DNA of 64,000 bases from Haloarcula rubra (GTDB lineage: Archaea; Halobacteriota; Halobacteria; Halobacteriales; Haloarculaceae), in NCBI RefSeq assembly GCF_019599465.1, contig NZ_RKLR01000003.1, forward strand, positions 62,001 through 126,000, written 5' to 3'. This document shows positions 41,912-63,926 of the stretch, piece after piece. The notes beneath the pieces are model-generated. The model worked only from the letters and a program-made list of their open reading frames with translations, did not search any database and was not told the origin of the DNA. A program made the translations under genes and the position numbers. The number at the start of each line of letters is the position of its first letter. Position 1 is the stretch's first letter.

Positions 41912-41919
41912 CATAACAA
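41912..41919 (+). promoter_or_regulatory. CATAACAA promoter element before DUF457-like gene
   Basis: GCATAACAATAGGGG begins the unit. The GTG of a 12-aa mini-ORF (41946) is 26 nt downstream, and the main ATG is at 41989. Confidence 0.5.
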
Positions 41920-41945
41920 TAGGGGGTACGGTCCGACCCCCGGCC

Positions 41946-41984
41946 GTGAGACAGACCAGTGACGTCGTCGGGTGGGGTGCATAG
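41946..41984 (+). CDS. Possible leader mini-ORF (12 aa)
   Basis: A GTG 26 nt after the CATAACAA element encodes a 12-residue peptide ending in TAG at 41984, 4 nt before the main ATG at 41989. It fits the mini-ORF pattern described under findings, but a GTG start makes it weak. Confidence 0.3.
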   Translation: MRQTSDVVGWGA

Positions 41985-41988
41985 TTCG

Positions 41989-42558
41989 ATGTGGCCGTGG
42001 GAACATCTCGCCGTCGGCTACCTCCTCTACTCGCTGGTAGTACGGGCGACCGGTCGGTCCCGACCGCGGGGCCCCGACGTCCTCGCCGTCGGTCTCGGGT
42101 CGCAGTTCCCCGACCTCGTCGACAAGCCGCTCGGGTGGGGGACGACGCTGTTGCCCTCCGGAACGTCGCTCGCCCACTCGTTGCTGTTCGCTGTCCCCGT
42201 CGCGACGCTCGTCGTCCTCGTCGCCGCCCGGTACCGCCGGTCCTCGATAGGTATCGCCTTCGCAGTCGCGTACCTCGCACACATCCCCAGCGACGTGGTG
42301 TACCCACTCGTGCTGGGCGACGAACTCCGGTTGGGGTTCGTACTCTGGCCGCTGATTCCGGCCGACCCGATGCCGCCGACGAACGTCTTCGCCCGCGTGG
42401 GTCACCTGTTCACCGACTTCCTCGCCGTCGTCTCGACGCAGGCGGGACTCAGGTTCCTCTTCCTCGAAGCGTTCCTGCTCGGTGTGACCCTCCTCGTCTG
42501 GCACGCCGACGGCCTCCCGGGACTGGAACTGGTCAGGCCGACACCCACCGACCGATAG
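41989..42558 (+). CDS. Metal-dependent hydrolase-like membrane protein (DUF457/YdjM family)
   Basis: The 189-residue protein has about four membrane helices and the metal-site pattern of the YdjM/DUF457 family. This includes PWEHLAVGYLLYSL with His6, GLGSQFPDLVDKPLGW with Asp pairs, GTSLAHSLLFAVP, and AHIPSDVVYPLV. The family is annotated as membrane-bound metal-dependent hydrolases, mainly by similarity. Substrates might be lipid or glycan lipids. It has its own CATAACAA promoter. Confidence 0.8.
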   Translation: MWPWEHLAVGYLLYSLVVRATGRSRPRGPDVLAVGLGSQFPDLVDKPLGWGTTLLPSGTSLAHSLLFAVPVATLVVLVAARYRRSSIGIAFAVAYLAHIPSDVVYPLVLGDELRLGFVLWPLIPADPMPPTNVFARVGHLFTDFLAVVSTQAGLRFLFLEAFLLGVTLLVWHADGLPGLELVRPTPTDR

Positions 42559-42642
42559 CGGGGGGTCGACCGAGCGCGTGCGGCGTCGTGAGATGTCTGA
42601 CGGTGGTTTTAATTAGTGTCGTTCTGTTCATTGTGTTAGCAG

Positions 42643-42993
42643 ATGTCACGTAAGAGTGGGGAGCTTTCGGCCGGGGGCAGACGGGGGAACAGCGAATCGG
42701 GGGACGCGGGCGTCGTGGACCGGCAGCCCACGTACGACCCGACCACCGACACGTACCTGACGACGTTCTCGCCGACGGACACCGCGGCGAGCATCGCCGT
42801 CGTGGCGGCGCTGACCGACGTCCGGCACTGTTCGACGACCGACCTCGAACCGCTCTACGACGGGCTGGACACGGACGCGCTCGACGCGCTCGTCGACGGT
42901 GCCGGGCCGTCGCTCGAGGTGCGTTTCTCGGTGGACGGGTTCGGGGTACTCGTCACCAGTACGGGGCGTATCGAAGTGACGCCGCCGGAGTGA
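42643..42993 (+). CDS. HalOD1 output-domain protein
   Basis: The 116-residue protein has the HalOD1 pattern at about 40-115: ASIAVVAALTDVRHCSTTDLEPLYDGLDTDALDALVD ... VRFSVDGFGVLVTSTGRIEV. HalOD1 is a haloarchaeal stand-alone or fused signalling output domain. A TTTTAATTAG box about 26 nt upstream supports the ATG at 42643. It sits between regulators and secreted proteins and may take part in their control. Target unknown. Confidence 0.82.
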   Translation: MSRKSGELSAGGRRGNSESGDAGVVDRQPTYDPTTDTYLTTFSPTDTAASIAVVAALTDVRHCSTTDLEPLYDGLDTDALDALVDGAGPSLEVRFSVDGFGVLVTSTGRIEVTPPE

Positions 42994-43047
42994 GCGTCGG
43001 GTCGCTAGAAGGGTCGGGCGAGACGGGGTGTCCGGAACGCGGGCCGC

Positions 43048-45168: not shown

Positions 45169-45356
45169 CACTGCGAGAGTGAGTAGACTACAGTATAGTT
45201 ACCCACTCCGTACGAGAGGGCTGCGGTCCGAACACCAGGCAGACCCGAATTTTGCACCGATTCGTCTCATAGGAGGGCGTTTCTGGCGGTAAGTGTGTCC
45301 TTCTCACGGGTCGCTGGTCGGTTATTCGGTTAGTTACCATACACTGTGGAGCGCTG

Positions 45357-45722
45357 GTGTCACGAGTGGCGTCCGATTTCACGACAGAGGTCGCGTTCGT
45401 CGAGGAGCGCGGCACGAACGTCGAACGTCTGCTCTGGGGCGTGGTGATCGTCGCCTCCGCGGCCGACGTCGTCCTGACGCTCGTCGGCGTGTCGATGTGT
45501 TTCAGCGAGGCCAACCCGGTGGCGCGCGCGGCGTTAGACACGGCGGGTGGCGCCGGACTCATGGGGCTGAAACTCCTCGCACTGGGGGCGCTGTTCGTCG
45601 TCTACCGACGGGTCAGACCCGCGTACCGACGGGCGGCACTGACGGCGTTCTCGCTCCCGCAACTGTTCGCAGTCGGGCACAACAGCCTGTTGCTCGTCCA
45701 GTACGGGCCGGGCTGTCTCTGA
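45357..45722 (+). CDS. DUF5658-family small membrane protein
   Basis: The 121-residue protein has three or four hydrophobic helices (LLWGVVIVASAADVVLTLVGV, GAGLMGLKLLALGALFVVY, and a third near 95-115). ADVVLTLVGVSMCFSEANPVARAAL matches DUF5658. Function unknown. The first GTG is at 45357; a second in-frame GTG at 45366 is better spaced from a CCATACACT box at about 45338 for leaderless initiation. Confidence 0.75.
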   Translation: MSRVASDFTTEVAFVEERGTNVERLLWGVVIVASAADVVLTLVGVSMCFSEANPVARAALDTAGGAGLMGLKLLALGALFVVYRRVRPAYRRAALTAFSLPQLFAVGHNSLLLVQYGPGCL

Positions 45723-45723
45723 G

Positions 45724-46254
45724 TCAGGAGGACTCGTCCGCCATCGCTCGCGAGGACACCGACGCACTGCGCGTCCGTTCGAGGACCGAGATAGCGTCTT
45801 CCGGCGTGTACGCGACGCCGTCGACGACACAGGGGAAGACGGCGACGAGCTTCTGCTCCGCGTAGAGTGCCAGACACCGACACGGCGGGACGATACGCCG
45901 GAACGATTCGTCGGCGAAGCTGGAGGTGACCTTCGTGATGCGGAAGAACGGCGAGATGGAGATACCGCGTTTGGCCGCGAGTGCGTAGAACTCGCCGATG
46001 GTCGAGACGATGCGCTCTCCGCTGCCGACGTTCGCGAGCACGCTCCCCGTACAGATGCTATCGCCCCAGACCAGCAGGTCGACGCCGTCCACAACCCCCT
46101 CGTCGGCGAGTCCCGACAGTCGCTCGACGAGGGCGTCCTGCTGTCGCTTGCTGCCCACGGGTGCCAACGAGTGGACGAACACCTCGGCGGTGAGTGACGT
46201 CTCCGTGGAAGGCAACAGTTCTTCGAGGGGGGTCGCTGACTCACCTGAACTCAT
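45724..46254 (-). CDS. Uncharacterised haloarchaeal protein (176 aa)
   Basis: From ATG 46252-46254 the protein reads MSSGESATPLEELLPSTETS and carries a long mixed alpha/beta domain. This contains LVWGDSICTGSVLANVGSGERIVSTIGEFYALAAKRGISISPFF and a Cys-containing IVPPCRCLALYAEQKLVAVFPCVVDGVAYTPEDAI segment. No family is recognised, but composition is normal for haloarchaeal soluble proteins. It is convergent with the DUF5658 gene. A TTTAATAGG box about 30 nt upstream supports this start. Confidence 0.65.
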   Translation of the reverse strand: MSSGESATPLEELLPSTETSLTAEVFVHSLAPVGSKRQQDALVERLSGLADEGVVDGVDLLVWGDSICTGSVLANVGSGERIVSTIGEFYALAAKRGISISPFFRITKVTSSFADESFRRIVPPCRCLALYAEQKLVAVFPCVVDGVAYTPEDAISVLERTRSASVSSRAMADESS

Positions 46255-46668
46255 GTCTCTCACGTAGCGATGCCCCCAGTGACCTATTAAAGACATAGGA
46301 CGCTTCGGGACATAAGACCGACTTACAGCGCCTGTATCACGTAATAGCGACGAATAAGGCTGCGTTGGGGGAGAGCGGACAGCGCAGCCGGGACGACGGC
46401 GCCGCCGTCTCGTGTGGCCTGAGTGGGGGTGGGGTGGGTGAGTTGGCAAGGGATGGACCGGTGTGGGCCAGTACGCGCAGGTGTTCGCTCTCCCCGCGTC
46501 GGAGTCGACGGGGTGGCCGTGTATTGTTATTCCGTGGTTAGTGGCGGTAGGGAGTGTGACTGCCGGTCGGCGTCCGCGAGCCACGTCCGTCGTATTCGAG
46601 CCCATCGCCCGCGTGTCGGCGTGAAGGAAGTTCATAACTACCTGAAAGACAGCGAGTTGACTGGTGTG
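46255..46668. other. Intergenic stretch of 414 nt
   Basis: No gene is convincing on either strand. The region holds the reverse-strand promoter of the 176-aa gene near 46285, a G-rich stretch at about 46420-46450, an orphan TTGTTAT (reverse ATAACAA) at 46524-46530 with no start codon in range, and the CATAACTA element at 46633 that serves the following small gene. Confidence 0.5.
46633..46640 (+). promoter_or_regulatory. CATAACTA promoter element before small membrane protein
   Basis: TTCATAACTACC lies 28 nt before the ATG at 46669, the leaderless spacing. It is a one-base variant of the CATAACAA octamer. Confidence 0.5.
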
Positions 46669-46764
46669 ATGTTCGCACTGAAACGGGTCCTCCTGATTGG
46701 CATCGGTCTCCTCACCGTCGGACTTGCTTACCGGACGATACGGTCGGGTCACGGCGGGCAATGA
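46669..46764 (+). CDS. Very small membrane protein (31 aa)
   Basis: From ATG 46669 the protein reads MFALKRVLLIGIGLLTVGLA followed by YRTIRSGHGGQ. One membrane helix with a short basic tail is evident. The CATAACTA box 28 nt upstream makes the start credible, and the gene is followed 45 nt later by a DUF7344 gene. Function unknown; it may be a regulator-associated or envelope peptide. Confidence 0.55.
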   Translation: MFALKRVLLIGIGLLTVGLAYRTIRSGHGGQ

Positions 46765-46809
46765 GCGGCAGCGTGCCGCGTCCCTCGACCACGCCCTCCG
46801 CACGCAGCT

Positions 46810-47172
46810 ATGACGAGTGAGGACGAGACCTCGCCGTTAGCCGACGCGGACAGCGACACCGGCCTGTTACCGGACGCAGAGTGTATCGACCTGCTCTCGT
46901 CGAACCGGCGGCGAATCCTGCTCCGCGCGCTCGTCGACGCCGACGAGCGCGAGCACTCACTGGAGTCGCTGGCCGCGACGGTCGCACAGACGGAACAGGG
47001 CACGGACCTCGCCGACGTCGCGACGCACCGCGTCGGCGTCTCACTCCACCACGTCCACCTCCCGAAACTGGACGACGCCGGCGTCCTCGACTACGACAGG
47101 GAGACCAACACCGTCCGGTTCTACGGCAACGACCGTATCGAGACGTGGTTAGAGACCATGCGCGACGACTAG
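46810..47172 (+). CDS. DUF7344 soluble winged-helix protein
   Basis: The 120-residue protein has the DUF7344 pattern (CIDLLSSNRRRILLRALVDADEREHSLESLAATVAQTEQGTDLADVATHRVGVSLHHVHLPKLDDAGVLDYDRETN) without the membrane helices of the two paralogues near 41 kb. It would bind DNA in the cytoplasm. It probably shares a transcript with the upstream 31-aa gene. It is convergent with the FemAB-like gene. Its proximity to genes bearing the CATAACAA octamer makes it a candidate regulator. Confidence 0.8.
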   Translation: MTSEDETSPLADADSDTGLLPDAECIDLLSSNRRRILLRALVDADEREHSLESLAATVAQTEQGTDLADVATHRVGVSLHHVHLPKLDDAGVLDYDRETNTVRFYGNDRIETWLETMRDD

Positions 47173-47180
47173 CCGGTGGC

Positions 47181-48182
47181 TCACTTGAGCCGTCGGTAGA
47201 GCCGAGCCATCGCGCCGAACCCGGGCGCGCTCCGCTCGAGCGAGTGGTAGCGGGTCAGCGTCGGGGCGAACTTCGACTTGTACCGCGAGAGCCGCGGGTT
47301 GTTCGCTCCGACGAGGTCGTACGCTCCGACGCCCCGTGCGGACGCGTCACGGATGACGTACCAGTGCAGCAGATCGTTGATGTCGTATTCGAGGTCGGTC
47401 TTGACCGTCCCCTGCCAGCCGTACGCGCGGCGGCCGTCGTCGAGGACGAGACTACCCCCCGCGAACACGCCGTCGATGGTACAGACGTACGGGCGGAGGT
47501 ACCCCTCGGGCAACGCCTCGTAGAGGTCCTCGACGAGTTCGATAGTCACGGGGAACTGGAGGTCCTGTTCCGCGTGCCGGTTGCGGACCTGTGTGATGAT
47601 GCTCCGGGCGGCCGCGTGTCCGGATTCGGTCACCGTACAGTCGTCCTCTGCCTCCCTCACGTTCGACCGGGCGTCGCGACTGAAGCGGTCGAACAGCGCG
47701 TCCGGGCCGGCCTCGAGGTCGACGACGTAGGTGAACCGCGGCGTCTCTTCGAACATCTCCCAGTCGAACGGGCGCGTGTCGGGGGTCGTGATAGACGTTC
47801 GGACGTGGACGTATCGAGGGGCGTGTGTCCGGTCCAGCCAGTCCAGACAGCGCTCGACGAACCGGCGTCGACGGCGCTCGACCGAGTTGGACTTCATCCC
47901 GGGACTGGTCAGGATGACGGGCCCGAGGTAGCTCACTTTGAGGTCCGGTGGTGGCGAGAACGCCGTCGTTATCGGCCCCTTCTCGATGGTGAACAGCGGG
48001 AACAGACCGACGGGTTCCTGACCCTTGTACCCTATCAGCGGGTGAAACGCCGCGTCGGCGTGGTCGGCGAACACCGAGAGCGCCTCGAAGCGATGGAACG
48101 GTGTCCGTTCGTCCGTCCGTTCTAACGTGTCGTTCCAGACGTCGCTGTCGCTCGCGTCGAGCGCGGTTATTTCCAGGCTCAT
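47181..48182 (-). CDS. FemAB/GNAT-fold acyltransferase-like protein
   Basis: The 333-residue protein is a double-GNAT FemAB/BioF2-type enzyme. It has TPFHRFEALSVFADHADAAFHPLIGYKGQEPVGLFPLF near the start, then RDARSNVREAEDD, and GGSLVLDDGRRAYGWQGTVKTDLEYDINDLLHWYVIRDASARGVGAYDLVGANNPRLSRYKSKF near 240-305. Bacterial relatives add amino acids to peptidoglycan or modify surface glycolipids; some occur in exopolysaccharide clusters. Archaea lack peptidoglycan, so a glycan acylation role is inferred. The ATG overlaps the stop of a mini-ORF. Confidence 0.8.
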   Translation of the reverse strand: MSLEITALDASDSDVWNDTLERTDERTPFHRFEALSVFADHADAAFHPLIGYKGQEPVGLFPLFTIEKGPITTAFSPPPDLKVSYLGPVILTSPGMKSNSVERRRRRFVERCLDWLDRTHAPRYVHVRTSITTPDTRPFDWEMFEETPRFTYVVDLEAGPDALFDRFSRDARSNVREAEDDCTVTESGHAAARSIITQVRNRHAEQDLQFPVTIELVEDLYEALPEGYLRPYVCTIDGVFAGGSLVLDDGRRAYGWQGTVKTDLEYDINDLLHWYVIRDASARGVGAYDLVGANNPRLSRYKSKFAPTLTRYHSLERSAPGFGAMARLYRRLK

Positions 48183-48235
48183 GGGTCCATCCCTCTTCGT
48201 ATCCCCCAGTTCCGGAGACCGGTAAGCGCCAACAT
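48179..48235 (-). CDS. Possible leader mini-ORF before FemAB-like gene (18 aa)
   Basis: On the reverse strand an ATG at 48235 encodes MLALTGLRNWGIRRGMDP and ends in TGA (48181-48179) overlapping the main ATG (ATGA). It starts 30 nt after a TATAACTTA element. This is the same geometry as at the DUF1616 and GT2 genes. Confidence 0.4.
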   Translation of the reverse strand: MLALTGLRNWGIRRGMDP

Positions 48236-48266
48236 CGCTCGCTTCGTACTGACGACCACGGGGGGT

Positions 48267-48274
48267 AAGTTATA
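48267..48274 (-). promoter_or_regulatory. TATAACTT promoter element upstream of FemAB-like gene
   Basis: The reverse strand reads GGCTATAACTTACC. The mini-ORF ATG at 48235 lies about 30 nt downstream. It is a variant of the TATAACAA octamer. Confidence 0.45.
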
Positions 48275-48345
48275 GCCAGCCTACCTCCGGACGCAGTCAC
48301 GGCACCTGCGGGCCGTCGAGACGGGCGTTCCGGCGGTACGGACGC

Positions 48346-48353
48346 CATAACAA
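48346..48353 (+). promoter_or_regulatory. CATAACAA promoter element before DUF1616 gene
   Basis: CGCCATAACAAAGCG is followed by the mini-ORF ATG at 48385, 31 nt later, then by the main GTG at 48447. Confidence 0.55.
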
Positions 48354-48384: not shown

Positions 48385-48450
48385 ATGTCTGGGGCTAGCG
48401 TTCGGGCGACCCGTGAGTCGACGACGGACCGGTGGAGGTCTAGGGCGTGA
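48385..48450 (+). CDS. Possible leader mini-ORF before DUF1616 gene (21 aa)
   Basis: ATG 48385 encodes MSGASVRATRESTTDRWRSR-A and ends in TGA overlapping the GTG of the main gene (GTGA at 48447-48450). It lies 31 nt after the CATAACAA element, in the leaderless position. Confidence 0.4.
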   Translation: MSGASVRATRESTTDRWRSRA

Positions 48451-49451
48451 GCGTCACCGAGACCGCTCGCCGGCTGGCGGCGTCCACGTTAGACGTCGTA
48501 CCGATAGACCTCGTGGCACTCCTCGTCTACGTCGTCTTCGCCAGCGCGGCAGTGACCGTCGGCGTCGGCGGGACGGTGGTCGGCTTCGTGGTCGGCTCCC
48601 TCCTCGTGTTCTTCGTCCCGGGGTACGCGGTCATCGCTGCCCTCTTTCCCCGCCGACCACAGAACAGGGACGCCGGTGAGGGCGCTATCGGCCTGTCGCT
48701 GACGGCCGCCCACGACGGCGTCCTCGCACGGGAGCGACTGGCGCTGTCGTTCGGTCTCAGCGTGACGCTGATTCCGCTCGCCGCGGTCACGCTCGGAGCG
48801 CTGGGTATCAGACTGACCACGGAGTCCGTGCTCGCATCGGTGTGGGTCGTCGTCGTATTCGGCGTGGTCGTCGGCACTGCTCGACGGCTCGCCGTCCCGT
48901 CCCACGAGCGGTTCGACCCGCTGGCGGTCGCCCGGCAGACCGGGACGGAGCGCTTCTTCGGCGGCGACGCCGTGACTCGCGCGCTCACCGTCTGTCTCTG
49001 TATCGCCGTCGTGGCCGCGCTCGGGTCGCTCACCGTCGCCCTCGCGGGGCCGACCCAGTCGATGTCCTACACCAGTGCCTCGCTGCTGACCGAGTCGCCC
49101 TCTGGTGAGAACGTCGCCGGTGGGTACCCGACGAACGGGACGGTCGGCGAGTCGACTTCGCTCGTCGTCGAAGTGACGAACCACCACGACAGCGCCGCCA
49201 CCTACACCGTCGTCGCGAGGCTCCAGCGCGTCGACGGCGGGACGGTCCTCGCCAGCGAGACGCTCCGCCGTCAGTCACAGCGGGTCGCCGTGAACGAGAC
49301 GTGGACGTACGACCACACGGTCACGCCGACGATGGCCGGACAGGACCTCCGATTGGCGTACTACGTCGTCCGCGGACCGATGCCGGACACCGTCGACGAC
49401 GGGACTGCGGACAAGGTCCTCTACCTGCGAATCGACGTCGCGCCGCGGTGA
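48447..49451 (+). CDS. DUF1616 family membrane protein
   Basis: The 334-residue protein starts at GTG 48447. Hydrophobic segments near 20-60, 95-115, 125-145 and 185-205 anchor it. LVALLVYVVFASAAVTVGVGGTVVGFVVGSLLVFFVPGYAVIAALFPRR with the FxPGYxxxxxLFP motif is the DUF1616 signature. The last 120 residues form an extracytoplasmic beta-sandwich (VEVTNHHDSAATYTVVARL). DUF1616 proteins are frequent in archaeal exopolysaccharide and N-glycan loci, but their role is unknown. Confidence 0.85.
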   Translation: MSVTETARRLAASTLDVVPIDLVALLVYVVFASAAVTVGVGGTVVGFVVGSLLVFFVPGYAVIAALFPRRPQNRDAGEGAIGLSLTAAHDGVLARERLALSFGLSVTLIPLAAVTLGALGIRLTTESVLASVWVVVVFGVVVGTARRLAVPSHERFDPLAVARQTGTERFFGGDAVTRALTVCLCIAVVAALGSLTVALAGPTQSMSYTSASLLTESPSGENVAGGYPTNGTVGESTSLVVEVTNHHDSAATYTVVARLQRVDGGTVLASETLRRQSQRVAVNETWTYDHTVTPTMAGQDLRLAYYVVRGPMPDTVDDGTADKVLYLRIDVAPR

Positions 49452-49763: not shown

Positions 49764-52700
49764 TCAGAGCTGTCGACTGAGGACGGCGATACTGCCCGCG
49801 ACGAGTCCGATGCTGCCGAGCGCGAGGAGGCCCAGCAGGAGCGGGGACATCGAACCGCCGTCGCCGCCGGACTGGACCCACGACTCGGTCTGGACGGTCT
49901 TGGCCTCGCCGCCGACGGTCACCGACGCGTTCTGTCCGTTGACGCCCACAGTGTACTGGCCGGGGTGTTCGATTCGCTGGTCGAAAGTGACCGTCTTCGT
50001 CTCGCCGGGTGCGACGGTCACGGACTGGCGCTCGACCACCTCACCGAAGACGACGAAGGAGGCGTTCTCGGTGCCGGTGACGGTCCCGTCGTTGCGGAAC
50101 GTCGCGCGCACCTGCACGGACTCCCCGGCGTCGACCGTCTCGCGTTCCACGTCGACCGACGGGGGGCCGATGTCGGCTCTCGCTGGCGCGACGTCGACGG
50201 TCGTCTGGAGGCCGGCGACGGTGAGGCGCTGTTGCCCGGCCGCCGTCGGGACGACGGTAAACTGGAGACGCTCGGTCTCGCCCGCCCGAATCGTCACGCG
50301 TTCGGAGGCGACGACGCGACCGCCGAGGACCGTCGTCACCGTCTCAGACCCGTCCCGGTGCCCGGTGTTGGCGAGCGTCACCGAGACGTTCGTCGACCGG
50401 TTCGCCACCGGCGACCCGGCGACTGCGAGGTCGGTCCCGACGACCTGTGCCGTCGGGAGGCCGACGACCAGCGGTTCCTCCGGGCCGGCCGTCGCGTTGA
50501 GGACGACGGTCGAGTCGTTGCGGACCAGCGTCGTCTCGACGGGCTCCCACCCGGACCCGTTCCACGTCGCGACGACGAGCGAGTCGACCGAGCCACCACG
50601 GTCACGGACTGCCGCTCGGTCGACGGCTAGCTGGTAGGTGACCGAGGCGGGGGCGGGACCGGACGAGACGGTCGGGCCGAGTGCCAACAGCGTCTCGTCG
50701 GTGCCGGTGGGTGGCCCGTCGCTCCCGTTCCACTCGTCGGTCACGGTCACTGCGGTGTCGGGTTCGACGTCGGCGAGCGCGATACGCCGGACCGTCACCG
50801 GACCGCTTCCGAGCGCTCCGTCCTCGATTTCGGCACCGACGAGGTTCGACTCGACGTTGCTCTCGACGACGACGGCGTTCCCCTCGCGCGTCGCCGTCCC
50901 GGGGGGTTCGACGTCGTCTGGTTCGGGCGCCGGGGCGGGGGCCGCACCGCCTCCGCCACCGCCGCCACCGCCTCCGCCGCTGTCGCTTCCGCCGCCTCCA
51001 CCGCCCCCACCGCCACCGCTGGACGACTGTGCGACGGTCACCGTGACGGCGGCGCTCGCCGTCTGGCCGTACCGGCCGGTCACCTCGTACGTCGCCGTGT
51101 ACTGGCCGCTCGTCTCGAAGACGTGGCTGGTCTGTGAGGCGACAGACGTGGTCGTGGTCCCGTCGCCGAAGTCGAGACGCTGGCTCTCGACGCGGTCCGC
51201 CGGGGTCGCCTCGGCGGTGAACACCACTGTCTCGCCCGGCTGCACCTGCTGGCTGTCCGCCGACAGCGTGGCCGTCAGGTCCGTCGCGGCCTCGACGCTG
51301 ACCGTCGCTGTCGCCGTCGACGACACGTTCTCGGCGTCCGTGACGGTCACGCTCACCGTCCGGTTGCCGACGGTGTCGAACGCCGTGGTCAGCGTGGCGT
51401 TCGCCGTCACGTTCTCGGCGGTGCCGTCGCCGTCGGTGTCCCACTCGTAGGTGGCGCCACCGCGGGGGACCGTCGAGTTGCTGGCGTCCAGCGTGACGTT
51501 CGCCGCCGGACGTGCAGTCGCGGGTGCGTCGAGTCTGGCGACCGGGTCCTCGGTCGCGTTACGCTGGACGGCGACTGTCGCGTTCGCGCTGTCCGTCTGT
51601 CCGCTGGCGTCGGCGACGGTGACGGCCACCGTCCGATTCCCCGTGGTGGCGAACGTCGTCTGAATCTGCGACGCCGTGGTTCGCCGGTCGACCGTCCCGT
51701 CGCCGTCCACGTCCCAGCGGTACTCGGTGATACCGAAGTCGTCCGTCGAGTTGCCCGCGTCCAGCACGATGCTCTCGTTCCGGAGCGCCGTCTCCGGCGC
51801 CGACAGGGCCGCGCTGGGCGGTTGGTCGACGACGACGTCGATACTGGTGTTCGCCGTGTCGGTGTCGCCCTGGCCGTCGCTGACGGTCAGCGAGACGTTG
51901 TACGAGCCAGCCTGCGTGTAGGTGTGCTGCACGGTGGGGCCGGTCGCGCTGGTGCCGTCACCGAGCGTCCACGCGTACGTGGCCGACTCGCCGACGGTCG
52001 AGTTACGCCCGTCGAAGGTGACCGTCTCGCCCACGTTGGCTTCTGTCGGCCCCTCGATAACCGCCTCGACGGACTGGTTGGACGTGACTGTCACCGAGGC
52101 CGTGGCCTCGCCGCGCCGCCGCTCCATGTCGTCGACGAACACGGTGACCGTCTTCTCGCCGGTCGTGTCGTACGTCCGGTTCAGCGTCGGCCCGTCCGTC
52201 TCGACATCGACGGTGCCGTCGCCGTCCGTGTCCCAGAAGTAGCCGTAGATGTCCCCGTCGTCCGTCGAGTTGCTGGCGTCGTAGGTGACCGTCTGGCCGA
52301 CGGTGGCGTTCGACGGCGACGCCGTCAGCGACGCGTCAGGTGCGCTCCCGGCCGCACACGCCCCCTGCTGGACCGACACCGAGGCGTTCTTCGAGAGCGG
52401 GGCGAGGCGCTCCTCCGGCCCTCTGGCACTCCAGTTCAGTGGGTCGTCGGCGTACGCCCAGTCCTTGCTCTCTTTTGCGTAGGTGTCGTTCCCCCACTCG
52501 GCGTCGACGACGATGGCGGAGTCGTTGGCGTGCGCGAGCCCGCGCAGCGCGCCCCCGTCGTTCCGGTCCGGTTCCCACATCCAGTCCATCTGGCTGGACG
52601 TGTCGTTGTGGACGAATCGGTCGTCCTGGTTGGGGTAATTGTCGTCTTCGACGGCCCACTCCGCCTCTGTCGGGATGTTCGTGATGTCCATCGAGACGGC

Positions 52701-53060
52701 GCCGGCGGTGTCGCCCCCGTCGTTGCGCTTGTCGTGGAGGAAGACGAGACTGTCGCCCTGAGACCCGCGATAGACGTAGAACTGGCTTACCTGCGACACC
52801 TGCCGCTCGTCGGTCCCGTGAGAGCTGAAGTCCGTGTCGTTCTGGTAGTCGTAGTACGTGACGACGTCCTGTGACCCGTCCCCGACGATGGTAAGCGGAA
52901 CACACCGCTCGCCCTGCACCACGCTGTAGGCGGCCGGTCTGTTCTCGACGTTCTCGACGTTCCCCGCGGCCGTGCCGACCGGTCCTAAGGGGCCGATACT
53001 TGCGCCGACGACGAGCAGTACCAAAGCGATGCTCCTGATTGCGAGTGTCTCCCGTTCCAT
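49764..53060 (-). CDS. Large secreted multi-PKD-domain surface protein with C-terminal anchor
   Basis: The 1098-residue protein has a signal peptide (residues 1-32) and a Trp/Asp-rich N-domain with no recognised family (about 40-240). About five PKD repeats with the YDASNSTDDG/YxWDxDGDG pattern cover about 245-675. A striking poly-Gly linker at 679-706 (nt 50941-51024) separates them from a beta-rich C-terminal half. CARDB-like strands lie near 890-1050 and a membrane anchor ends the protein (MSPLLLGLLALGSIGLVAG). Many NxS/T sequons indicate glycosylation by AglB. It probably forms extended surface structures. Confidence 0.82.
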   Translation of the reverse strand: MERETLAIRSIALVLLVVGASIGPLGPVGTAAGNVENVENRPAAYSVVQGERCVPLTIVGDGSQDVVTYYDYQNDTDFSSHGTDERQVSQVSQFYVYRGSQGDSLVFLHDKRNDGGDTAGAVSMDITNIPTEAEWAVEDDNYPNQDDRFVHNDTSSQMDWMWEPDRNDGGALRGLAHANDSAIVVDAEWGNDTYAKESKDWAYADDPLNWSARGPEERLAPLSKNASVSVQQGACAAGSAPDASLTASPSNATVGQTVTYDASNSTDDGDIYGYFWDTDGDGTVDVETDGPTLNRTYDTTGEKTVTVFVDDMERRRGEATASVTVTSNQSVEAVIEGPTEANVGETVTFDGRNSTVGESATYAWTLGDGTSATGPTVQHTYTQAGSYNVSLTVSDGQGDTDTANTSIDVVVDQPPSAALSAPETALRNESIVLDAGNSTDDFGITEYRWDVDGDGTVDRRTTASQIQTTFATTGNRTVAVTVADASGQTDSANATVAVQRNATEDPVARLDAPATARPAANVTLDASNSTVPRGGATYEWDTDGDGTAENVTANATLTTAFDTVGNRTVSVTVTDAENVSSTATATVSVEAATDLTATLSADSQQVQPGETVVFTAEATPADRVESQRLDFGDGTTTTSVASQTSHVFETSGQYTATYEVTGRYGQTASAAVTVTVAQSSSGGGGGGGGGGSDSGGGGGGGGGGGAAPAPAPEPDDVEPPGTATREGNAVVVESNVESNLVGAEIEDGALGSGPVTVRRIALADVEPDTAVTVTDEWNGSDGPPTGTDETLLALGPTVSSGPAPASVTYQLAVDRAAVRDRGGSVDSLVVATWNGSGWEPVETTLVRNDSTVVLNATAGPEEPLVVGLPTAQVVGTDLAVAGSPVANRSTNVSVTLANTGHRDGSETVTTVLGGRVVASERVTIRAGETERLQFTVVPTAAGQQRLTVAGLQTTVDVAPARADIGPPSVDVERETVDAGESVQVRATFRNDGTVTGTENASFVVFGEVVERQSVTVAPGETKTVTFDQRIEHPGQYTVGVNGQNASVTVGGEAKTVQTESWVQSGGDGGSMSPLLLGLLALGSIGLVAGSIAVLSRQL

Positions 53061-53118: not shown

Positions 53119-53126
53119 TTGTTATA
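53119..53126 (-). promoter_or_regulatory. TATAACAA promoter element upstream of PKD protein
   Basis: The reverse strand reads GCTCTATAACAAAGCC and lies 58 nt before the ATG at 53060. No mini-ORF is visible here, so the transcript would have a leader of roughly 30 nt. Confidence 0.5.
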
Positions 53127-53152: not shown

Positions 53153-54262
53153 TTACACCGAGTCGGTGTTCAGTTGAATCTGCTCGCCGGCGGCCGGTCG
53201 TGCCGCGGCCCGCCGCACCTCTTCCATGATGCGAAGCGTCCACGTCCCCTCGGCGACGGGGACCGGCATCGGGTCGCCGTTGAGAATCGCTCTGGCCTCG
53301 GCGTCGAACTGGTAGTAGTGGGAGTCGAGGTCGCGTTCGGCCGCCCAGTCGTCGGTGAAGCTCCGGCGGGCGACGGCGACGACGTTCTCCAGCGTCCCCT
53401 CGATGCGGCCGAGGACGTGGTCGACGTTCGTGAGCGCGCGGGCCTTCGCGGAGGCCTCGTAGTCCCGGTCGAGGACCGTCACCGTCTGGGAGACGACGTC
53501 GACGAGCAGACTGCCCCGCTCGCCGTGGATTCGGATGGACTTGTGCGGGACGTCGCTGGCCAGTATCGTGGCGTTACACAGGACGTCCGTCTCGCTCGTG
53601 TACTGGAACTGGACGCTGTCGTAGTCGAACCCTTGCTCGTACTCTCTGGTGAGAGTGGTCTGGGCCTGAATCGCGTCGTCGTCGACCGGGTAGCCGCCGA
53701 GTTTCAGCACGATGTAGATGGGGTGTGGGAGTCCCTCCTCGAACTCGCCGCCGGGGAGGTCGAACGCCCACGCGCCCCGGCGCACGTCGTCGGGGTACGT
53801 CTCGCCGGTGTAGAGGATGTTCACGGAGCGGACGTCGCCGATGGCGCCGCGGTCGACGAGCCGGGTCGCCTTGCGAACGGCCGGGTCGAAGTTGTGGTTG
53901 TGGACGACCGACACCGGCACGTCGTGGTCGGCGGCGAGCGATTCCAGTTCCTCCGCTTCGACTACCGACGTCGTCACGGGCTTCTCTATCTGGACGGCGA
54001 TATCGTCCTCGATGGCCATCCGCGCCAGGTCGAGGTGTGTCTGGACGGGCGTACAGAGGTGAATCCAGTCGAGGTCTTCACGGGCGAGCATCCCCTCGAA
54101 GTCGGCGAAGGCACCGATGTCGTACTCGGTCGCTTTCGCTCGCGCTCGTGACTCGTCGAGGTCACATATCGCGACGAGGTTCGTCAGCGGACACTTCTGG
54201 AGGCCGGAGAGGTGGACGTCGGACACCGTGCCGCCGCCGACGACTGCGCTGTTCAGCGTCAT
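53153..54262 (-). CDS. Gfo/Idh/MocA family oxidoreductase
   Basis: The 369-residue protein has the Rossmann start AVVGGGTVSDVHLSGLQ and the family EKPVTTS motif near residue 95. The catalytic-region GxxxHxxH-like GLPHPIYIVLKLGG is also present. It is a NAD(P)-dependent dehydrogenase likely acting on a nucleotide sugar or inositol. The surrounding glycan genes suggest a sugar-nucleotide step. Start chosen at ATG 54262; a GTG 6 nt upstream also exists. A TATAACAA element lies 27 nt before the ATG. Confidence 0.88.
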   Translation of the reverse strand: MTLNSAVVGGGTVSDVHLSGLQKCPLTNLVAICDLDESRARAKATEYDIGAFADFEGMLAREDLDWIHLCTPVQTHLDLARMAIEDDIAVQIEKPVTTSVVEAEELESLAADHDVPVSVVHNHNFDPAVRKATRLVDRGAIGDVRSVNILYTGETYPDDVRRGAWAFDLPGGEFEEGLPHPIYIVLKLGGYPVDDDAIQAQTTLTREYEQGFDYDSVQFQYTSETDVLCNATILASDVPHKSIRIHGERGSLLVDVVSQTVTVLDRDYEASAKARALTNVDHVLGRIEGTLENVVAVARRSFTDDWAAERDLDSHYYQFDAEARAILNGDPMPVPVAEGTWTLRIMEEVRRAAARPAAGEQIQLNTDSV

Positions 54263-54416: not shown

Positions 54417-54424
54417 CATAACAA
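54417..54424 (+). promoter_or_regulatory. CATAACAA promoter element before GT2 gene
   Basis: GACCATAACAATGCCC is followed 30 nt later by the mini-ORF ATG at 54455. Confidence 0.55.
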
Positions 54425-54454: not shown

Positions 54455-54493
54455 ATGGGCCCTGAAACTCCCCGGCGCGTCGGAGCGTGGTGA
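54455..54493 (+). CDS. Possible leader mini-ORF before GT2 gene (12 aa)
   Basis: ATG 54455 encodes MGPETPRRVGAW and ends in TGA at 54493, 2 nt before the main ATG at 54496. It starts 30 nt after CATAACAA, consistent with leaderless initiation and coupling. Confidence 0.4.
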   Translation: MGPETPRRVGAW

Positions 54494-54495
54494 CG

Positions 54496-57032: not shown

Positions 57033-57044
57033 CCGCGCCGGTGC

Positions 57045-58655
57045 TCACTCGCCGTCCGCGAGGTAGCCGAGGTTGGCGAGTCGGTCGGCCACGTCGTGGT
57101 CCTCCCGAACCCGCCGCTCCGTGGTCTCGTAGTCGGGGTACGACTCGACCGGTGACGGGTCGACTATCGGGAGCGGGGTCCCGTCCATCCGCTCGGCACG
57201 CGGAACGCCGAGCGTACTCAGGACCGTCGGTGCCACGTCGAACAGGTGCGCGTCCGCGAGCGACGCCGACCCGTCGACGGCCGGCCCCGTCGCGGCGACG
57301 ACGCCGTCGCGCTTGTGGTTCCACGGCTCACGGGGCGTCCCGAACCACTCGCCGAGCAGGGAGCCGTTGAGGAAGTTGTCGAACGCTCGGGGGACGACGA
57401 CCACGTCCGGCGCGTCCTCGACGTAGGGGCCGTCGAAGACGGCCTCCCGCGGGCGGACCGCCTCGAAGACCCGTTCCCCGTCCGGGTCTTCGAGGGCCGC
57501 CAGCCGGTCGATAACCTCCCGGCGCGTCGACTCGTACGCGTCCGGGTCGACGACGCCCTCGGGTTCGCGGCCCGCGAGGTTGAGACGGACGCCCAGTTCG
57601 ATGCGGTCGCGCATGTACGCTCGCGAAGCACGGAAGTCGACCTGCTCCGTGCCCGCCCGGACGGCGTCGGTCGGCACGATTCGAGCGACGGTGTCTGCCA
57701 GCCCGAGCGGCTCGAGGACGGCCTCGACGCGCTGACTCGTCACACCGGCGCGGGCGAGGAGGCCGACGCCCCGTTCCAACGGGCCGGGGTCGGGCGTCCC
57801 GCCGCTCTCGCCCTGCTGGAGGCGACGGCGAGCGATGGCGTCCCACGACGGCATCCCCTCCCCGCCGGTCGTCGTCGCAAGCAGGTTCCAGTCCCGTAAG
57901 CACTCGTTAACGCGGATTTCGTGCCCCTCGTAGGGGCCGATGCCGTGGTCGCTGACCACGACGACGTTCTCCGGGGCCGCGGCGTCGAGGGCCATCGCTA
58001 CGGCGTCGTCGACGGCCTCGAACACACACTCGACGGCCTCGGTGTCTTCCGGTCGCCGGTGGAACACCGTGTCGGTCTGCTGGAACTCCAGAAAGCCGAA
58101 GTCCGGGTCGAACCGGTCGACGAGGTAGGCGAACGCGTCGCCTCTGGACCTCGCGTGTGCCGCTACGTCGTCGAGTGCCGCCTCGCCCGGTGTGTCCATC
58201 GGCCCGTAGACCGAGTAGGACCCGATGGCCGAACGCACGTCGTCGAGGATACCCTCGGGGTGGCCCGGCGGGTCCTCCGGAGAGACGTAACCCGGGATTA
58301 CCGCGCCGTCGACGTCGCTCGCGGGGCCGGTCACCGGGACGTTCACCACGACGCTGCTGTGGCCGTGGTGATCCATCAACTCCCACAGTGCGTGGGCGCG
58401 AACGTCCGTCGCGTCCACGACGTCGTGGTCGTAGCCGTCGAAGCGGAGGAACCCGTAGACGCCGTGTTTCCCGGGGTTGACGCCGGTGTACAGCGACGGC
58501 CACGCGCTCGGTGTCCACGGCGGGAGTTGCGAGGTCAGCGGCCCGCTGACGCCCTCCTCGAAGAGTCCCGACAGCGTCGGCGTCACCCCGGCGTCGAACA
58601 GCGGTTCGAGGACCGAGCGACAGACCCCGTCCAACCCCAACAGCAGTGTCTGCAT
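57045..58655 (-). CDS. Type I phosphodiesterase / nucleotide pyrophosphatase family protein
   Basis: The 536-residue enzyme has the superfamily metal strand LLLGLDGVCRSVLEP. The nucleophile region is PPWTPSAWPSLYTGVNPGKHGVYGF (Thr or Ser before the AWPS). VVVVSDHGIGPYEGHE with the second metal-binding Asp-His follows. The C-terminus is RLANLGYLADGE, like the two relatives at 22.8 and 24.3 kb. It is soluble and lacks a signal peptide. It may remove or transfer phosphoryl groups in glycan or lipid carrier metabolism. A TATAACGAA element is 26 nt before its ATG. Confidence 0.88.
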   Translation of the reverse strand: MQTLLLGLDGVCRSVLEPLFDAGVTPTLSGLFEEGVSGPLTSQLPPWTPSAWPSLYTGVNPGKHGVYGFLRFDGYDHDVVDATDVRAHALWELMDHHGHSSVVVNVPVTGPASDVDGAVIPGYVSPEDPPGHPEGILDDVRSAIGSYSVYGPMDTPGEAALDDVAAHARSRGDAFAYLVDRFDPDFGFLEFQQTDTVFHRRPEDTEAVECVFEAVDDAVAMALDAAAPENVVVVSDHGIGPYEGHEIRVNECLRDWNLLATTTGGEGMPSWDAIARRRLQQGESGGTPDPGPLERGVGLLARAGVTSQRVEAVLEPLGLADTVARIVPTDAVRAGTEQVDFRASRAYMRDRIELGVRLNLAGREPEGVVDPDAYESTRREVIDRLAALEDPDGERVFEAVRPREAVFDGPYVEDAPDVVVVPRAFDNFLNGSLLGEWFGTPREPWNHKRDGVVAATGPAVDGSASLADAHLFDVAPTVLSTLGVPRAERMDGTPLPIVDPSPVESYPDYETTERRVREDHDVADRLANLGYLADGE

Positions 58656-60803: not shown

Positions 60804-60805
60804 AG

Positions 60806-61006
60806 ATGTTCTCGAACAACGAGTGGGACGACGTCCCGGACGACCCCGACCCGCACGAGAACCTCGACTACGAGATGGAGGAACTCACCGTCATCCAGTC
60901 GGAGACGGACGACAAGTACGTCTTCCTCCCGGCAGAGGAGGACCACCTGCTAGAGGACGCCTTCATCGTCGCCGGCGCCGACGCCCTCGTGGAACTGCGC
61001 GAGTGA
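60806..61006 (+). CDS. Small acidic haloarchaeal protein (66 aa)
   Basis: The protein reads MFSNNEWDDVPDDPDPHENL, then DYEMEELTVIQSETDDKYVFLPAEEDHLLEDAFIVAGADALVELRE. It is very acidic, without Cys or a membrane helix. It starts 2 nt after the upstream stop, so it is translationally coupled. Its role is unknown; co-expression with the beta-helix protein is likely. Confidence 0.7.
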   Translation: MFSNNEWDDVPDDPDPHENLDYEMEELTVIQSETDDKYVFLPAEEDHLLEDAFIVAGADALVELRE

Positions 61007-61024
61007 GGGCGGCTTAAGGGCCTC

Positions 61025-61032
61025 TATAACTA
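61025..61032 (+). promoter_or_regulatory. TATAACTA promoter element before BKACE-like gene
   Basis: CTCTATAACTATCC lies 41 nt before a GTG at 61074 and 53 nt before the ATG at 61086, so a leader of about 15-30 nt is likely. Confidence 0.4.
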
Positions 61033-61043
61033 TCCGCCGATGC

Positions 61044-61065
61044 GTGGTGTGGTCGCACACACCAC
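61044..61065 (+). promoter_or_regulatory. Inverted repeat in the BKACE-like gene leader
   Basis: GTGGTGTG (61044-61051), six bases, CACACCAC (61058-61065) is a perfect 8-bp inverted repeat just after the promoter element. It could be an operator or RNA hairpin. Confidence 0.45.
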
Positions 61066-61085
61066 TACACTCGGTGTGGGTGACG

Positions 61086-61958
61086 ATGACTTACGACGAC
61101 TACATTCGCGGCGACGAGGCGATACTCGGCGTCGCACCGACGGGCTACCGCTATTCGACGGACGTGAACGAATCGCTGCCTGTGGCTCCCGACGAGGTCG
61201 CAGAGCAGGTGTACGAATCGGCGTCGTTCGGCGCGACGCTGGCCCACCTCCACGGCCGCGACGCCGACGGCGAGCCGGCCCCGTCACGCCTGTCGGCGTT
61301 CGGGTCGGCAGTCAGGGACCTCTGTCAGGACGACGTGCTCGTCGAGTACGCCGTCGAACCGCGGTGTTCGCCGGGCGACTTCCTCGCTATCCTCGACGAG
61401 GGCCCCGCGCCTGACCTGGCGTCGGTCCGGGTCGGCCCCGCCCAGTACGGCTACCGCGAGGCGTCCGACACGAGTCGTCGAGACGTCGACAGGTTCGTCG
61501 AGGAACTGGTGACGCGCGGTATAAAACCCAACCTGTTGGTCACCAGCGGTCGTGACTTGCAGGAGGTCTACCGACTGCGCGAGCAGTCGGTGCTCGAGGA
61601 CCCGCCGGTGCTGACGCTCCTGTTCGGGGCCGCCGACGGGACCGTCGCGACGCCGACGAACGTCCTCTCGCTACTCGACGCCGTCCCCGACGAGGCGGCC
61701 TGCTTCGTGCGTGCGACCGGCCCGAACCAGTACCCGCTGACCGCCGTGGCCTTCTTCCTCGGGGCCCACCCCGTCGTCGGGATGGAGGACAACCTCTTCG
61801 TCGGCCCCGAGACGCCCGTCGAGCGCAACGCCCAACTCGTCCGGCAGGCCGCAGAGCGGACGCGCTACTCGCTCCGAGAGGTCGCCTCCCCGACGGTCAC
61901 GCGGCGACTGCTGGGCCTGCCCAGCGTCGAGACCGAGGACAACGACATCGAGGTGTGA
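61086..61958 (+). CDS. BKACE family (beta-keto acid cleavage enzyme, DUF849) protein
   Basis: The 290-residue protein has the BKACE opening AILGVAPTGYRYSTDVNESLPVAPDEVAEQ. Zinc ligands lie in LAHLHGRD (His54, His56), and VVGMEDNLFVGPETPVERNAQLV supplies a later Glu. Family members condense a beta-keto acid with acetyl-CoA or run the reverse reaction. It is somewhat shorter than most bacterial members. Among surface genes its natural substrate is unclear. Several starts are possible (GTG 61074, GTG 61080, ATG 61086). Confidence 0.82.
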   Translation: MTYDDYIRGDEAILGVAPTGYRYSTDVNESLPVAPDEVAEQVYESASFGATLAHLHGRDADGEPAPSRLSAFGSAVRDLCQDDVLVEYAVEPRCSPGDFLAILDEGPAPDLASVRVGPAQYGYREASDTSRRDVDRFVEELVTRGIKPNLLVTSGRDLQEVYRLREQSVLEDPPVLTLLFGAADGTVATPTNVLSLLDAVPDEAACFVRATGPNQYPLTAVAFFLGAHPVVGMEDNLFVGPETPVERNAQLVRQAAERTRYSLREVASPTVTRRLLGLPSVETEDNDIEV

Positions 61959-62022
61959 AACCGTCGCCTACCGAGCGAAGGCGGACCATACCTTTCTCTC
62001 GGGACGCCGCCTCGTCGGTACG

Positions 62023-62799
62023 ATGGACGCTGTGATACTGGCGGCCGGTCAGGGCACCCGACTCCGTCCGCTCACGGACGACAAACCGAAGGGCATGGTC
62101 GAAGTCGCGGGCAAGCCTATCCTCACGCACTGTTTCGAACAGGTCATAGAGCTCGGTGCCGAGGAACTGTACGTCGTCGTCGGCTACAAGAAACAGGTCA
62201 TCATCGACTACTACGAGGACGAGTTCGAGGGCGTCCCCATCACGTACACCCACCAGCGCGAACAGAACGGCCTCGCGTCGGCCCTCCTCACCGTCGAAGA
62301 GCACGTCGACGACGAGTTCATGTTGCTACTCGGCGACAACATCTTCGACGCCAACCTCGGCGACGTGATAACGCGCCAGCGCGAGGAGCGGGCCGACGCC
62401 GCCTTCCTCGTCGAGGAAGTGCCGTGGGAGGAGGCCAGTAGGTACGGCGTCTGTGACACCAACAAGTACGGCGAGATAACCGATGTCGTCGAGAAACCCG
62501 ACGACCCGCCGTCGAACCTGGTGATGACCGGCTTCTACACGTTCACCCCGGCCATCTTCCACGCCTGTCACCTCGTCCAGCCCTCCGACCGGGGCGAGTA
62601 CGAACTGAGCGACGCCGTGGACCTGCTCATCGACTCGGGGCGAACCATCGACGCCATCCGCATGGACGGATGGCGCGTGGACGTGGGCTATCCCGAGGAC
62701 CGCGACGCGGCCGAACAGCGGCTACAGGACGACGCCGTCACCGTCGCGGACGGGGTCGACGAGGAGACCACGTCTGCCGCCCAGTCCGGCAGCGAGTGA
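62023..62799 (+). CDS. aglF: Sugar-phosphate nucleotidyltransferase, AglF-like
   Basis: The 258-residue enzyme has the nucleotidyltransferase signature AVILAAGQGTRLRPLTDDKPKGMVEVAGKPI and LLLGDNIFDANLGDVI. DVVEKPDDPPSNLVMTGFYTF and MDGWRVDVGYPEDRDAAEQRL follow. The pattern is that of UTP/dTTP-glucose-1-phosphate transferases such as haloarchaeal AglF. It makes the UDP-glucose needed for glycan sugars. The end is a Ser/Glu-rich tail. A CATACCTT box at 61987 lies 28 nt before the ATG. Confidence 0.85.
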   Translation: MDAVILAAGQGTRLRPLTDDKPKGMVEVAGKPILTHCFEQVIELGAEELYVVVGYKKQVIIDYYEDEFEGVPITYTHQREQNGLASALLTVEEHVDDEFMLLLGDNIFDANLGDVITRQREERADAAFLVEEVPWEEASRYGVCDTNKYGEITDVVEKPDDPPSNLVMTGFYTFTPAIFHACHLVQPSDRGEYELSDAVDLLIDSGRTIDAIRMDGWRVDVGYPEDRDAAEQRLQDDAVTVADGVDEETTSAAQSGSE

Positions 62800-62834
62800 C
62801 CGGGAACAGTCGCACCCACGACGTATTCTCTGTG

Positions 62835-63794
62835 TCACGACGTATTACCGTCGGCGACGGGCGTCGACTCCGCCCGTAGCGTCTGCCGTGCGACGTCGTA
62901 CATCGTCTCGACCGTCAGGTCGCCGTCTTCGCGGCGTCGGTCGACGTGTTCCAGAATCGCGCGGAGGCGGTCCACGTCGCGGCGCTCGGTGACGTTGTTC
63001 GGGTGCAACCAGAGGTGGCAGACGCCGTCCTCGCTGGCCGCGGCGTCGACACCGAGACGGGCCTGTCTCACCACCGGGTCGCCGACCGTCGCCGAGAACA
63101 CCTGCCGGGCGACGCCCTCGAACTCGAAGAGGTACATCGACGCGGGGACGTTCACGAGGCCGTACTCGTCGACGGTGGGGGTCACGAGCGGCGGCGGCCG
63201 TTCGACCACCGTCGCCCGTGCGACCTTCCGGGCCGCGCCGAGGACGGGACCGTCGACCCCGGGCGACGGCGCGGTGCCCCGGTAGGAGGTGAACCCGGCG
63301 TTCGCGAGGGCCTCTCGGTGGCCGACGCGGTTGCGTGGGAAGACGAAGGAGTGTAGCGAGACGCCGGCGGCCTCGGCCGCTTCGACCGCTCGACGGCACT
63401 CCGCGTCGGCGAGTTCGGGCGTCGCGTAGTCGGCCCCGAACAGTACGTGCGAGTAGGTGTGACAGCCGACGTCGTGTGGCACCGGGCCGTCGACGAGCGA
63501 GCGAATCAGGTCCGGCGCGAAGCGGAACCGCTCGGGCATCGGGTCCGGCTCCCGCTCGTGGGCGAACCACCCCGGCGGCGACGGGTGGCCGACGTGTGCC
63601 CCGTTGCAGGAGTCCTCGAACAGGTGGCCGACGACGGCCCACGTCGCCGGGACCGCGAACTCCTCGAACAGGTCGACGAGGCGCTCCCACCCCCAGCGTG
63701 CCCGCTCGATGCGCTCGGTCGGGCGGTCCTCGGGCGGATAGTCGTGAAAGCCCCAGCCGAGTTCCGCGTCGACGGAGACGACGACAGTTCCCAT
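62835..63794 (-). CDS. Polysaccharide deacetylase family protein
   Basis: The 319-residue protein carries the NodB/CE4 signature: VSVDAELGWGFHDYPP with the catalytic base Asp, DVGCHTYSHVLFG with the metal His pair, and SFVFPRN later. It has no signal peptide, so it is probably cytoplasmic or exported without a recognisable signal. It would remove acetyl groups from N-acetyl sugars in surface polysaccharide. It is convergent with aglF, and has a CATAACCAA element 26 nt before the ATG. Confidence 0.87.
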   Translation of the reverse strand: MGTVVVSVDAELGWGFHDYPPEDRPTERIERARWGWERLVDLFEEFAVPATWAVVGHLFEDSCNGAHVGHPSPPGWFAHEREPDPMPERFRFAPDLIRSLVDGPVPHDVGCHTYSHVLFGADYATPELADAECRRAVEAAEAAGVSLHSFVFPRNRVGHREALANAGFTSYRGTAPSPGVDGPVLGAARKVARATVVERPPPLVTPTVDEYGLVNVPASMYLFEFEGVARQVFSATVGDPVVRQARLGVDAAASEDGVCHLWLHPNNVTERRDVDRLRAILEHVDRRREDGDLTVETMYDVARQTLRAESTPVADGNTS

Positions 63795-63820
63795 TTGTTT
63801 CCGAGTCGGGGTCGCTCGTA

Positions 63821-63829
63821 TTGGTTATG
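63821..63829 (-). promoter_or_regulatory. CATAACCAA promoter element upstream of deacetylase gene
   Basis: The reverse strand reads GCATAACCAATACG, 26 nt before the ATG at 63794. It is a one-base variant of CATAACAA. Confidence 0.5.
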
Positions 63830-63918
63830 CGACGGTGACGGGTCGGTAAGCCGACTGTAGCATCAGGTTACGACCCGCCGACGGCGACCGGTAGCGGCCG
63901 CCGATTTCACAGGACGCC

Positions 63919-63926
63919 CATAACAA
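63919..63926 (+). promoter_or_regulatory. CATAACAA promoter element before the gene cut by the window end
   Basis: GCCCATAACAAAGCCCGG, 36 nt before the ATG at 63963. Confidence 0.5.

Follow-up and report, generated by a model that had tools for sequence, protein, structure and literature searches.

A bipartite element at the core-promoter position in a surface-polysaccharide gene cluster of Haloarcula rubra and across the class Halobacteria

The control that archaea exert on building and changing their surface polysaccharides is little studied, and a 64,000-nucleotide stretch of the Haloarcula rubra genome (assembly GCF_019599465.1, contig NZ_RKLR01000003.1, positions 62,001 to 126,000; hereafter the window) raises the question in a specific form. 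Does the octamer YATAACAA, which recurs in the right part of the window before genes of surface glycans, mark a regulon with a promoter element of its own and, if so, what reads it? We find that such a surface-glycan regulon, with an element at the core-promoter position, is well supported by sequence comparison, because the octamers cluster, are conserved across genera and recur in other families; this bears out the proposal made in an initial annotation of the window. The element lies about 35 nt before leaderless starts, is followed by a normal -11/-10 region, is restricted to clusters of this kind, and is conserved. The recurrence of word, spacing and kind of gene points to a dedicated switch for building the cell surface.

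The octamer occurs seven times in the window, always within 41,912-63,926, where 0.16 copies are expected and at most two were found in any of 100 dinucleotide shuffles. All of the seven copies initially reported (at 41912, 48346, 54417, 55572 and 63919 on the plus strand, and at 53126 and 54297 on the minus strand) are present, there are zero copies in positions 1-41000, and the sole ATAACAA in the left half is, as had been said, a single instance, GATAACAA at 23145. Our genome-wide counts come from pattern searches and sampled stretches. The assembly (4.67 Mb, 37 contigs) holds 41 exact octamers compared to 82 copies of the reversed word; the word is therefore without general genome-wide enrichment, and we rejected that possibility. 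Yet ten of the 41 copies lie within 38 kb (C31:103,912-142,182, which is window 41,912 to ~80,182; Poisson P ~4e-12), and NATAACAA is found in 0 of 98 control intergenic promoters sampled from the same genome. The cluster thus extends past the right edge of the window. The word is A/T-rich, and hence commoner in intergenic DNA, but nothing beyond that favors an origin of the cluster by chance or composition; this origin is contradicted by the shuffle, reversed-word, control-region and cross-genus tests, and we consider its probability negligible.

The element is bipartite, a feature that the initial annotation missed, and consists of YAnG, five bases, and YATAACAAW (YAnG-N5-YATAACAAW). The profile of 52 nonredundant promoters from Gfo/Idh regions is concordant with that of 63 promoters from differently chosen regions; ATAACAA itself is fixed by the selection of promoters, so that the evidence comes from the flanking positions. 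Counted from the box, these are a Y at -9, an A at -8 (43/52 and 59/63 promoters), a G near -6/-7, and a W at +8 (50/52 and 59/63). Downstream, the A/T content rises at +23/+24 and start codons follow at +33 to +36. Upstream, weak A/T steps occur about 10 bp apart (-39, -28, -18 and -8); among the 100 combined promoters, all chosen with an A at -8, the A/T peaks are at -39, -28 and -18. A TTACC about 20 bp upstream, noted by eye in several Haloarcula promoters, was dropped as a separate motif, as in the wider set it amounts to weak A/T phasing.

The distance from the first base of the box to the start codon has a mode of 33-36 nt, with 35 the commonest value, based on starts from a simple caller, some of which will be wrong. 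Counted from the last base, the mode is 25-28 nt, in line with the 25-32 nt given initially, but several boxes lie 43-110 nt ahead of the annotated gene, often because a tiny open reading frame (ORF) intervenes. Taking +35 as the start, the boxed promoters have a -11/-10 element that matches the one in control promoters from the same genome, which have A at -35 to -33, T/A at -30 to -25 and A/T at -11/-10. Unlike the controls, neither set of boxed promoters has a TATA at -30 to -25; their A/T core lies at about -34 to -27, which is 3-4 bp upstream of the ordinary TATA. Boxed and ordinary promoters differ in register. The initial description of the box as an atypical TATA element is no more than half correct, because the A/T block is shifted and the conserved stretch continues up to a YAnG (about -44 to -41), beyond where TATA-binding protein (TBP) and transcription factor B (TFB) usually make contact.

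Conservation of the box is not confined to this genome, although the genomes compared share ancestry and the counts carry no correction for this. Upstream of Gfo/Idh orthologues, NATAACAA is kept in 26 genomes from 8 genera, mostly 33-35 nt before the ATG, and the flanks of these boxes diverge between genomes while the box stays. In 40-kb stretches from ten relatives, nearly all boxes fall in intergenic DNA and precede a gene. The G047 stretch has none of the C/T/A forms of the box, and its Gfo/Idh box is GATAACAA. The Gfo/Idh genes that lack the box have promoters of ordinary TATA appearance; these are two orthologues from genus g6 (G050 and G054) and an extra paralogue in G075. The element, its spacing and the type of gene recur across the class Halobacteria, including other families.

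The boxed sites of the cluster are given below in window coordinates, with scores from a matrix trained on promoters of other genera.

41912-41919, plus strand: CATAACAA box before a YdjM/DUF457-like membrane protein gene (41989-42558); score 22.3
46524-46531, minus strand: AATAACAA box upstream of an HTH_63 regulator gene (45724-46182 or longer); score 21.9
46633-46640, plus strand: variant box CATAACTA; score 12.9, weak
48267-48274, minus strand: variant box TATAACTT with TAGG upstream, before a FemAB-like acetyltransferase gene (47181-48182); score 10.9, weak
48346-48353, plus strand: CATAACAA box before a DUF1616 gene (48447-49451); score 23.4
53119-53126, minus strand: TATAACAA box before a PKD-domain surface protein gene (49764-53060); conserved in L052-L054
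54290-54297, minus strand: TATAACAA box exactly 35 nt before the ATG of a Gfo/Idh/MocA gene (53153-54262)
54417-54424, plus strand: CATAACAA box before a GT2 gene (54487/54496-55539); conserved in L052-L055
55572-55579, plus strand: CATAACAA box 33 nt before the ATG (55605) of a Tat-signal protein gene; conserved in L052-L055
58683-58690, minus strand: variant box TATAACGA, 35 nt before the ATG of a phosphodiesterase gene (57045-58655); score 14.3
61025-61032, plus strand: variant box TATAACTA before a BKACE-family gene (61086-61958); score 14.6
63822-63829, minus strand: variant box CATAACCA, 35 nt before the ATG of a polysaccharide deacetylase gene (62835-63794); under the matrix cut-off
63919-63926, plus strand: CATAACAA box before a hexapeptide acyltransferase gene that starts past the right edge (window +64028); score 23.1

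The exact-core site at 46531 on the minus strand had been overlooked; it is conserved as AATAACAA in G016, G010 and G002 and as TATAACAA in G013. Among the variants proposed initially, those at 46633, 48274 (minus), 58690 (minus) and 61025 are recovered by the matrix, but CATACCTT at 61987 is unsupported as a form of the box. For two variants the relatives have exact octamers before the corresponding genes: TATAACAA precedes the counterpart of the phosphodiesterase gene in G064, and CATAACAA stands at the place corresponding to 63829 (minus) in both G010 and G002.

The boxed genes and their neighbors encode YdjM-like proteins, FemAB-like acetyltransferases, DUF1616, a PKD surface protein, Gfo/Idh oxidoreductases, GT2 and GT4 glycosyltransferases, a Tat-signal protein, a phosphodiesterase, a nucleotidyltransferase, a polysaccharide deacetylase, a hexapeptide transferase, DUF354, a flippase, a formyltransferase, DegT aminotransferases, an epimerase, an ATP-grasp protein and a UDP-sugar dehydrogenase. 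This content identifies the cluster as one for surface polysaccharide. Its Gfo/Idh protein has 92% identity to that of Haloarcula pellucida, which places the species, a member of the GTDB Haloarcula group, near that one. Far from the cluster, a divergent pair of octamers (G000 C9, 18,566 minus and 18,646 plus) stands before genes for a PKD surface protein and for a Tat-signal protein that is, by eye, polysaccharide deacetylase-like; comparable divergent pairs occur in G002 (C12:1,103,927/1,104,015 and C1:674,214/674,311).

Many of the boxed promoters that have no gene at +31 to +48 have an ATG there that opens an ORF of 8-59 codons. Such ATGs number 45 in this 18-nt window compared to 3-9 in five other windows, with orthologues counted separately, and in 23 of the 45 ORFs the stop overlaps the start of a long ORF as NTGA. 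A 21-aa leader ORF overlaps the GTG start of the DUF1616 gene (48385-48450), and one of 22 aa overlaps the ATG of the hexapeptide gene (63963-64031); a 12-aa ORF (54455-54495) stops just before the ATG of the GT2 gene or overlaps its alternative GTG start. Tiny ORFs are also found at orthologous places in related loci, beginning near the expected leaderless start. These arrangements suggest leader ORFs whose translation may be coupled to that of the main genes.

What, then, might read the box? Candidate regulators are encoded in the cluster or at its edges:

Window +78,964 to 79,242, beyond the right edge, minus strand: winged-helix protein of 93 aa, PF25213-like by Pfam match
41113-41637, plus strand: DUF7344 regulator-like protein with C-terminal hydrophobic stretches (PF24035, 113 bits); candidate partner regulator
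40217-41026, minus strand; 46810-47172, plus strand; and C31:141,411-141,968: further DUF7344 proteins
45724-46803, minus strand: ORF with an HTH_63 domain, true start probably near 46250; conserved and divergent from the DUF7344 gene at 46810-47172

The winged-helix protein matches PF25213 (HVO_A0261 N-terminal winged-helix) with 43.0 bits (gathering cut-off 35) and has a weak match to the structure of an ArsR-family regulator (PDB 7r22, E 0.0099); its helix around IAHVSRAL is largely conserved. Of 146 genomes of the family, 89 encode relatives, as do 113 genomes in a class-wide sample of 292. In twenty 20-kb regions from about 15 other genera, centered solely on the winged-helix protein, we found 72 copies of NATAACAA and 23 of the reversed word. 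Boxes occur in 19 of these 20 regions (400 kb in total), compared to a single box in 20 control regions taken from the same genomes, mostly from the same contigs, about 400 kb off. Similarly, of 150 bipartite sites across 12 scored genomes (out of 17) from other families, 73 lie at most 50 kb from a winged-helix gene, where 4.7 are expected. The bipartite word outnumbers its reverse in genomes with the winged-helix protein (250:100 and 249:83), but not in 12 genomes without it outside genus g6 (84:85). The protein is present in all 26 genomes that are boxed at Gfo/Idh, and was not found in the two genomes whose sole Gfo/Idh orthologue is unboxed. In 12 species of the Haloarcula group (L150-L161), a near-invariant block, usually ATATGTGATACGTAACAAAG, lies 5' of the winged-helix operon; in C31 it is at window +80,043 on the minus strand. 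The block is a variant box (CGTAACAA) through which the operon seems to be autoregulated. In many Haloarcula species without the Gfo/Idh gene (L162-L179), a CATAACAAAGTATTAAGTGGCAAGGTGATGTTGATTTGAAATG promoter of high conservation is found some 650 bp away from the winged-helix gene.

These associations favor the winged-helix protein as the reader of the box, but several observations weigh against it. Five genomes of genus g6 without a detected winged-helix copy (E<=1e-18) have site clusters nonetheless (87 versus 33 in the control), and in G055 and G056 the site clusters lie away from the winged-helix copy found there. Most secondary winged-helix copies have no boxes around them (17 matches versus 17 for the reversed word), so that its proximity to boxes may be a property of the cluster and not a sign of binding. 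The element has no dyad symmetry, which would be expected for a winged-helix dimer, and the DUF7344 and HTH_63 genes show about equal linkage. The boxless secondary copies and genus g6 thus weaken the idea that the winged-helix protein is the sole and sufficient determinant. Within genus g6 (G050-G056), another regulator or a divergent winged-helix copy may serve.

The four DUF7344 proteins in the cluster and at its edges, most of which end in hydrophobic stretches, are possibly membrane-anchored regulators of surface genes. An activator from this family or the HTH_63 protein might itself read the box: DUF7344-like genes recur in 18 of the 20 winged-helix regions of other genera, and the divergent HTH_63/DUF7344 pair is kept in seven genomes of the Haloarcula group as well as in one further genus. 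However, DUF7344 genes are numerous and divergent, and of the 28 in this genome none that lies beyond the cluster has a box closer than 1.5 kb, so that they fail as markers of the box here; we consider this reading unlikely. The initial annotation had suggested either a dedicated TFB/TBP pair or an activator at the box, and it is the activator that the evidence favors. A dedicated TFB, or TFB/TBP pair, would read YATAACAA as an alternative to the TFB recognition element (BRE) and TATA, much like a sigma factor. The overlap of the element with the BRE/TATA position, its directionality and fixed spacing to the start, the presence of about a dozen TFB genes in the genome (25 domain matches), and the strong deviation possible in haloarchaeal TATA boxes, as in the bop promoter (PMC2121645), are all consistent with this idea. 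Yet there is no TFB in the cluster, the only one on contig C31 is about 447 kb away, and TFB-like proteins occur in just 3 of the 20 winged-helix regions, little more often than chance would give. In addition, YAnG conservation and A/T phasing extend far upstream of where TFB makes contact. We rejected a dedicated TFB in the cluster; a dedicated TFB or TFB/TBP pair gains no positive support from the cluster or from these regions, and we hold it to be quite unlikely. The box could instead be the operator of a winged-helix or DUF7344 repressor that blocks TBP and TFB until surface genes are needed. It does overlap the core promoter, and winged-helix proteins of the MarR/ArsR type are often repressors. 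If genes were controlled by repression, we expected a good TATA, but none is visible at -30 to -25, where the control promoters have one, and a repressor seems improbable.

The best fit is an activator that works on a promoter with a weak TATA, and the winged-helix protein, alongside a DUF7344 protein, is the lead candidate. The boxed promoters would lack a proper BRE and TATA and depend on a DNA-binding activator encoded in the cluster. The activator would sit over the edge of BRE and upstream TATA and follow one side of the helix, in keeping with the ~10-bp spacing of the upstream A/T steps, and would recruit TFB, TBP and polymerase; such a placement would account for the upstream displacement of the A/T core, for the conserved half upstream of it and for the A/T phasing. 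Most likely this activator is the winged-helix protein at window +78,964 to 79,242, and the DUF7344 protein whose gene lies immediately upstream, apparently anchored in the membrane, is a probable sensor or partner. We give this combination, a bipartite regulon element with a cluster-encoded activator, most likely the winged-helix protein with a probable DUF7344 partner, an even chance of being right; on the identity of the reader, which we infer from gene association, the balance is likewise roughly even. More tentatively, and with less confidence, the boxed promoters might form a class-wide type in which the winged-helix protein, together with membrane-bound DUF7344, replaces BRE/TATA recognition for surface-polysaccharide clusters in the manner of an alternative sigma factor, with the translation of some genes coupled to tiny leaderless ORFs.

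The analysis yields a precise sequence element, target genes throughout the Halobacteria and a few candidate regulators, which makes the question directly testable in a genetically tractable haloarchaeon. It would also offer a clear example of archaeal promoters that sequence alone suffices to recognize as a class, and it bears on why haloarchaea carry so many TFBs and on what else specifies promoters. In open papers (subscription papers were outside our scope) we found no published description of the motif and nothing relevant on DUF7344 or HVO_A0261; the switch is apparently undescribed so far.

Compared with known systems, the boxed promoters share with the canonical haloarchaeal promoter (BRE CGAAA, TATA TTWT, -10 WW; PMC4983044) the leaderless start spacing and the A/T element at -11/-10, but they lack the T-rich TATA at -30 to -25 and the A-rich BRE, which are replaced by YATAACAAW at about -34 to -27 and the upstream YAnG. 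The CsmR motif of Haloferax volcanii, TATCA-N4-TGATA, also adjoins the TATA position as a promoter-proximal regulator motif, in the control of motility and cell-shape genes (PMC13286277). It differs in being semi-palindromic and of different sequence; in its place the boxed promoters have YAnG-N5-YATAACAAW, and the direct targets of CsmR go up upon csmR deletion (PMC13286277). EarA, which acts at Methanococcus archaellum promoters, is a winged-helix activator that compensates a weak BRE (PMC13286277). It resembles the candidate proposed here in acting at weak core promoters of surface-structure genes, but belongs to another lineage with other targets, and sharing of a motif is undemonstrated. 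A parallel in design comes from bop-type promoters of Halobacterium, whose activator, Bat, acts with an adjacent upstream activator sequence. The bop promoter has a non-canonical TATA and no recognizable BRE (PMC2121645). Like it, the boxed promoters have a deviant haloarchaeal TATA, no recognizable BRE and a conserved element directly upstream (YAnG at -9 to -6 from the box, with phased A/T steps), and in both an activator or a special TBP/TFB is thought to be needed. They differ from it in sequence, in serving a far larger group of surface-glycan genes, in an invariant A/T core shifted 3-4 bp upstream, and in having a small winged-helix protein rather than Bat as the candidate regulator. Thus, while in membership they are no demonstrated part of the bop/Bat system, the boxed promoters appear, by analogy, to work as its promoters do.

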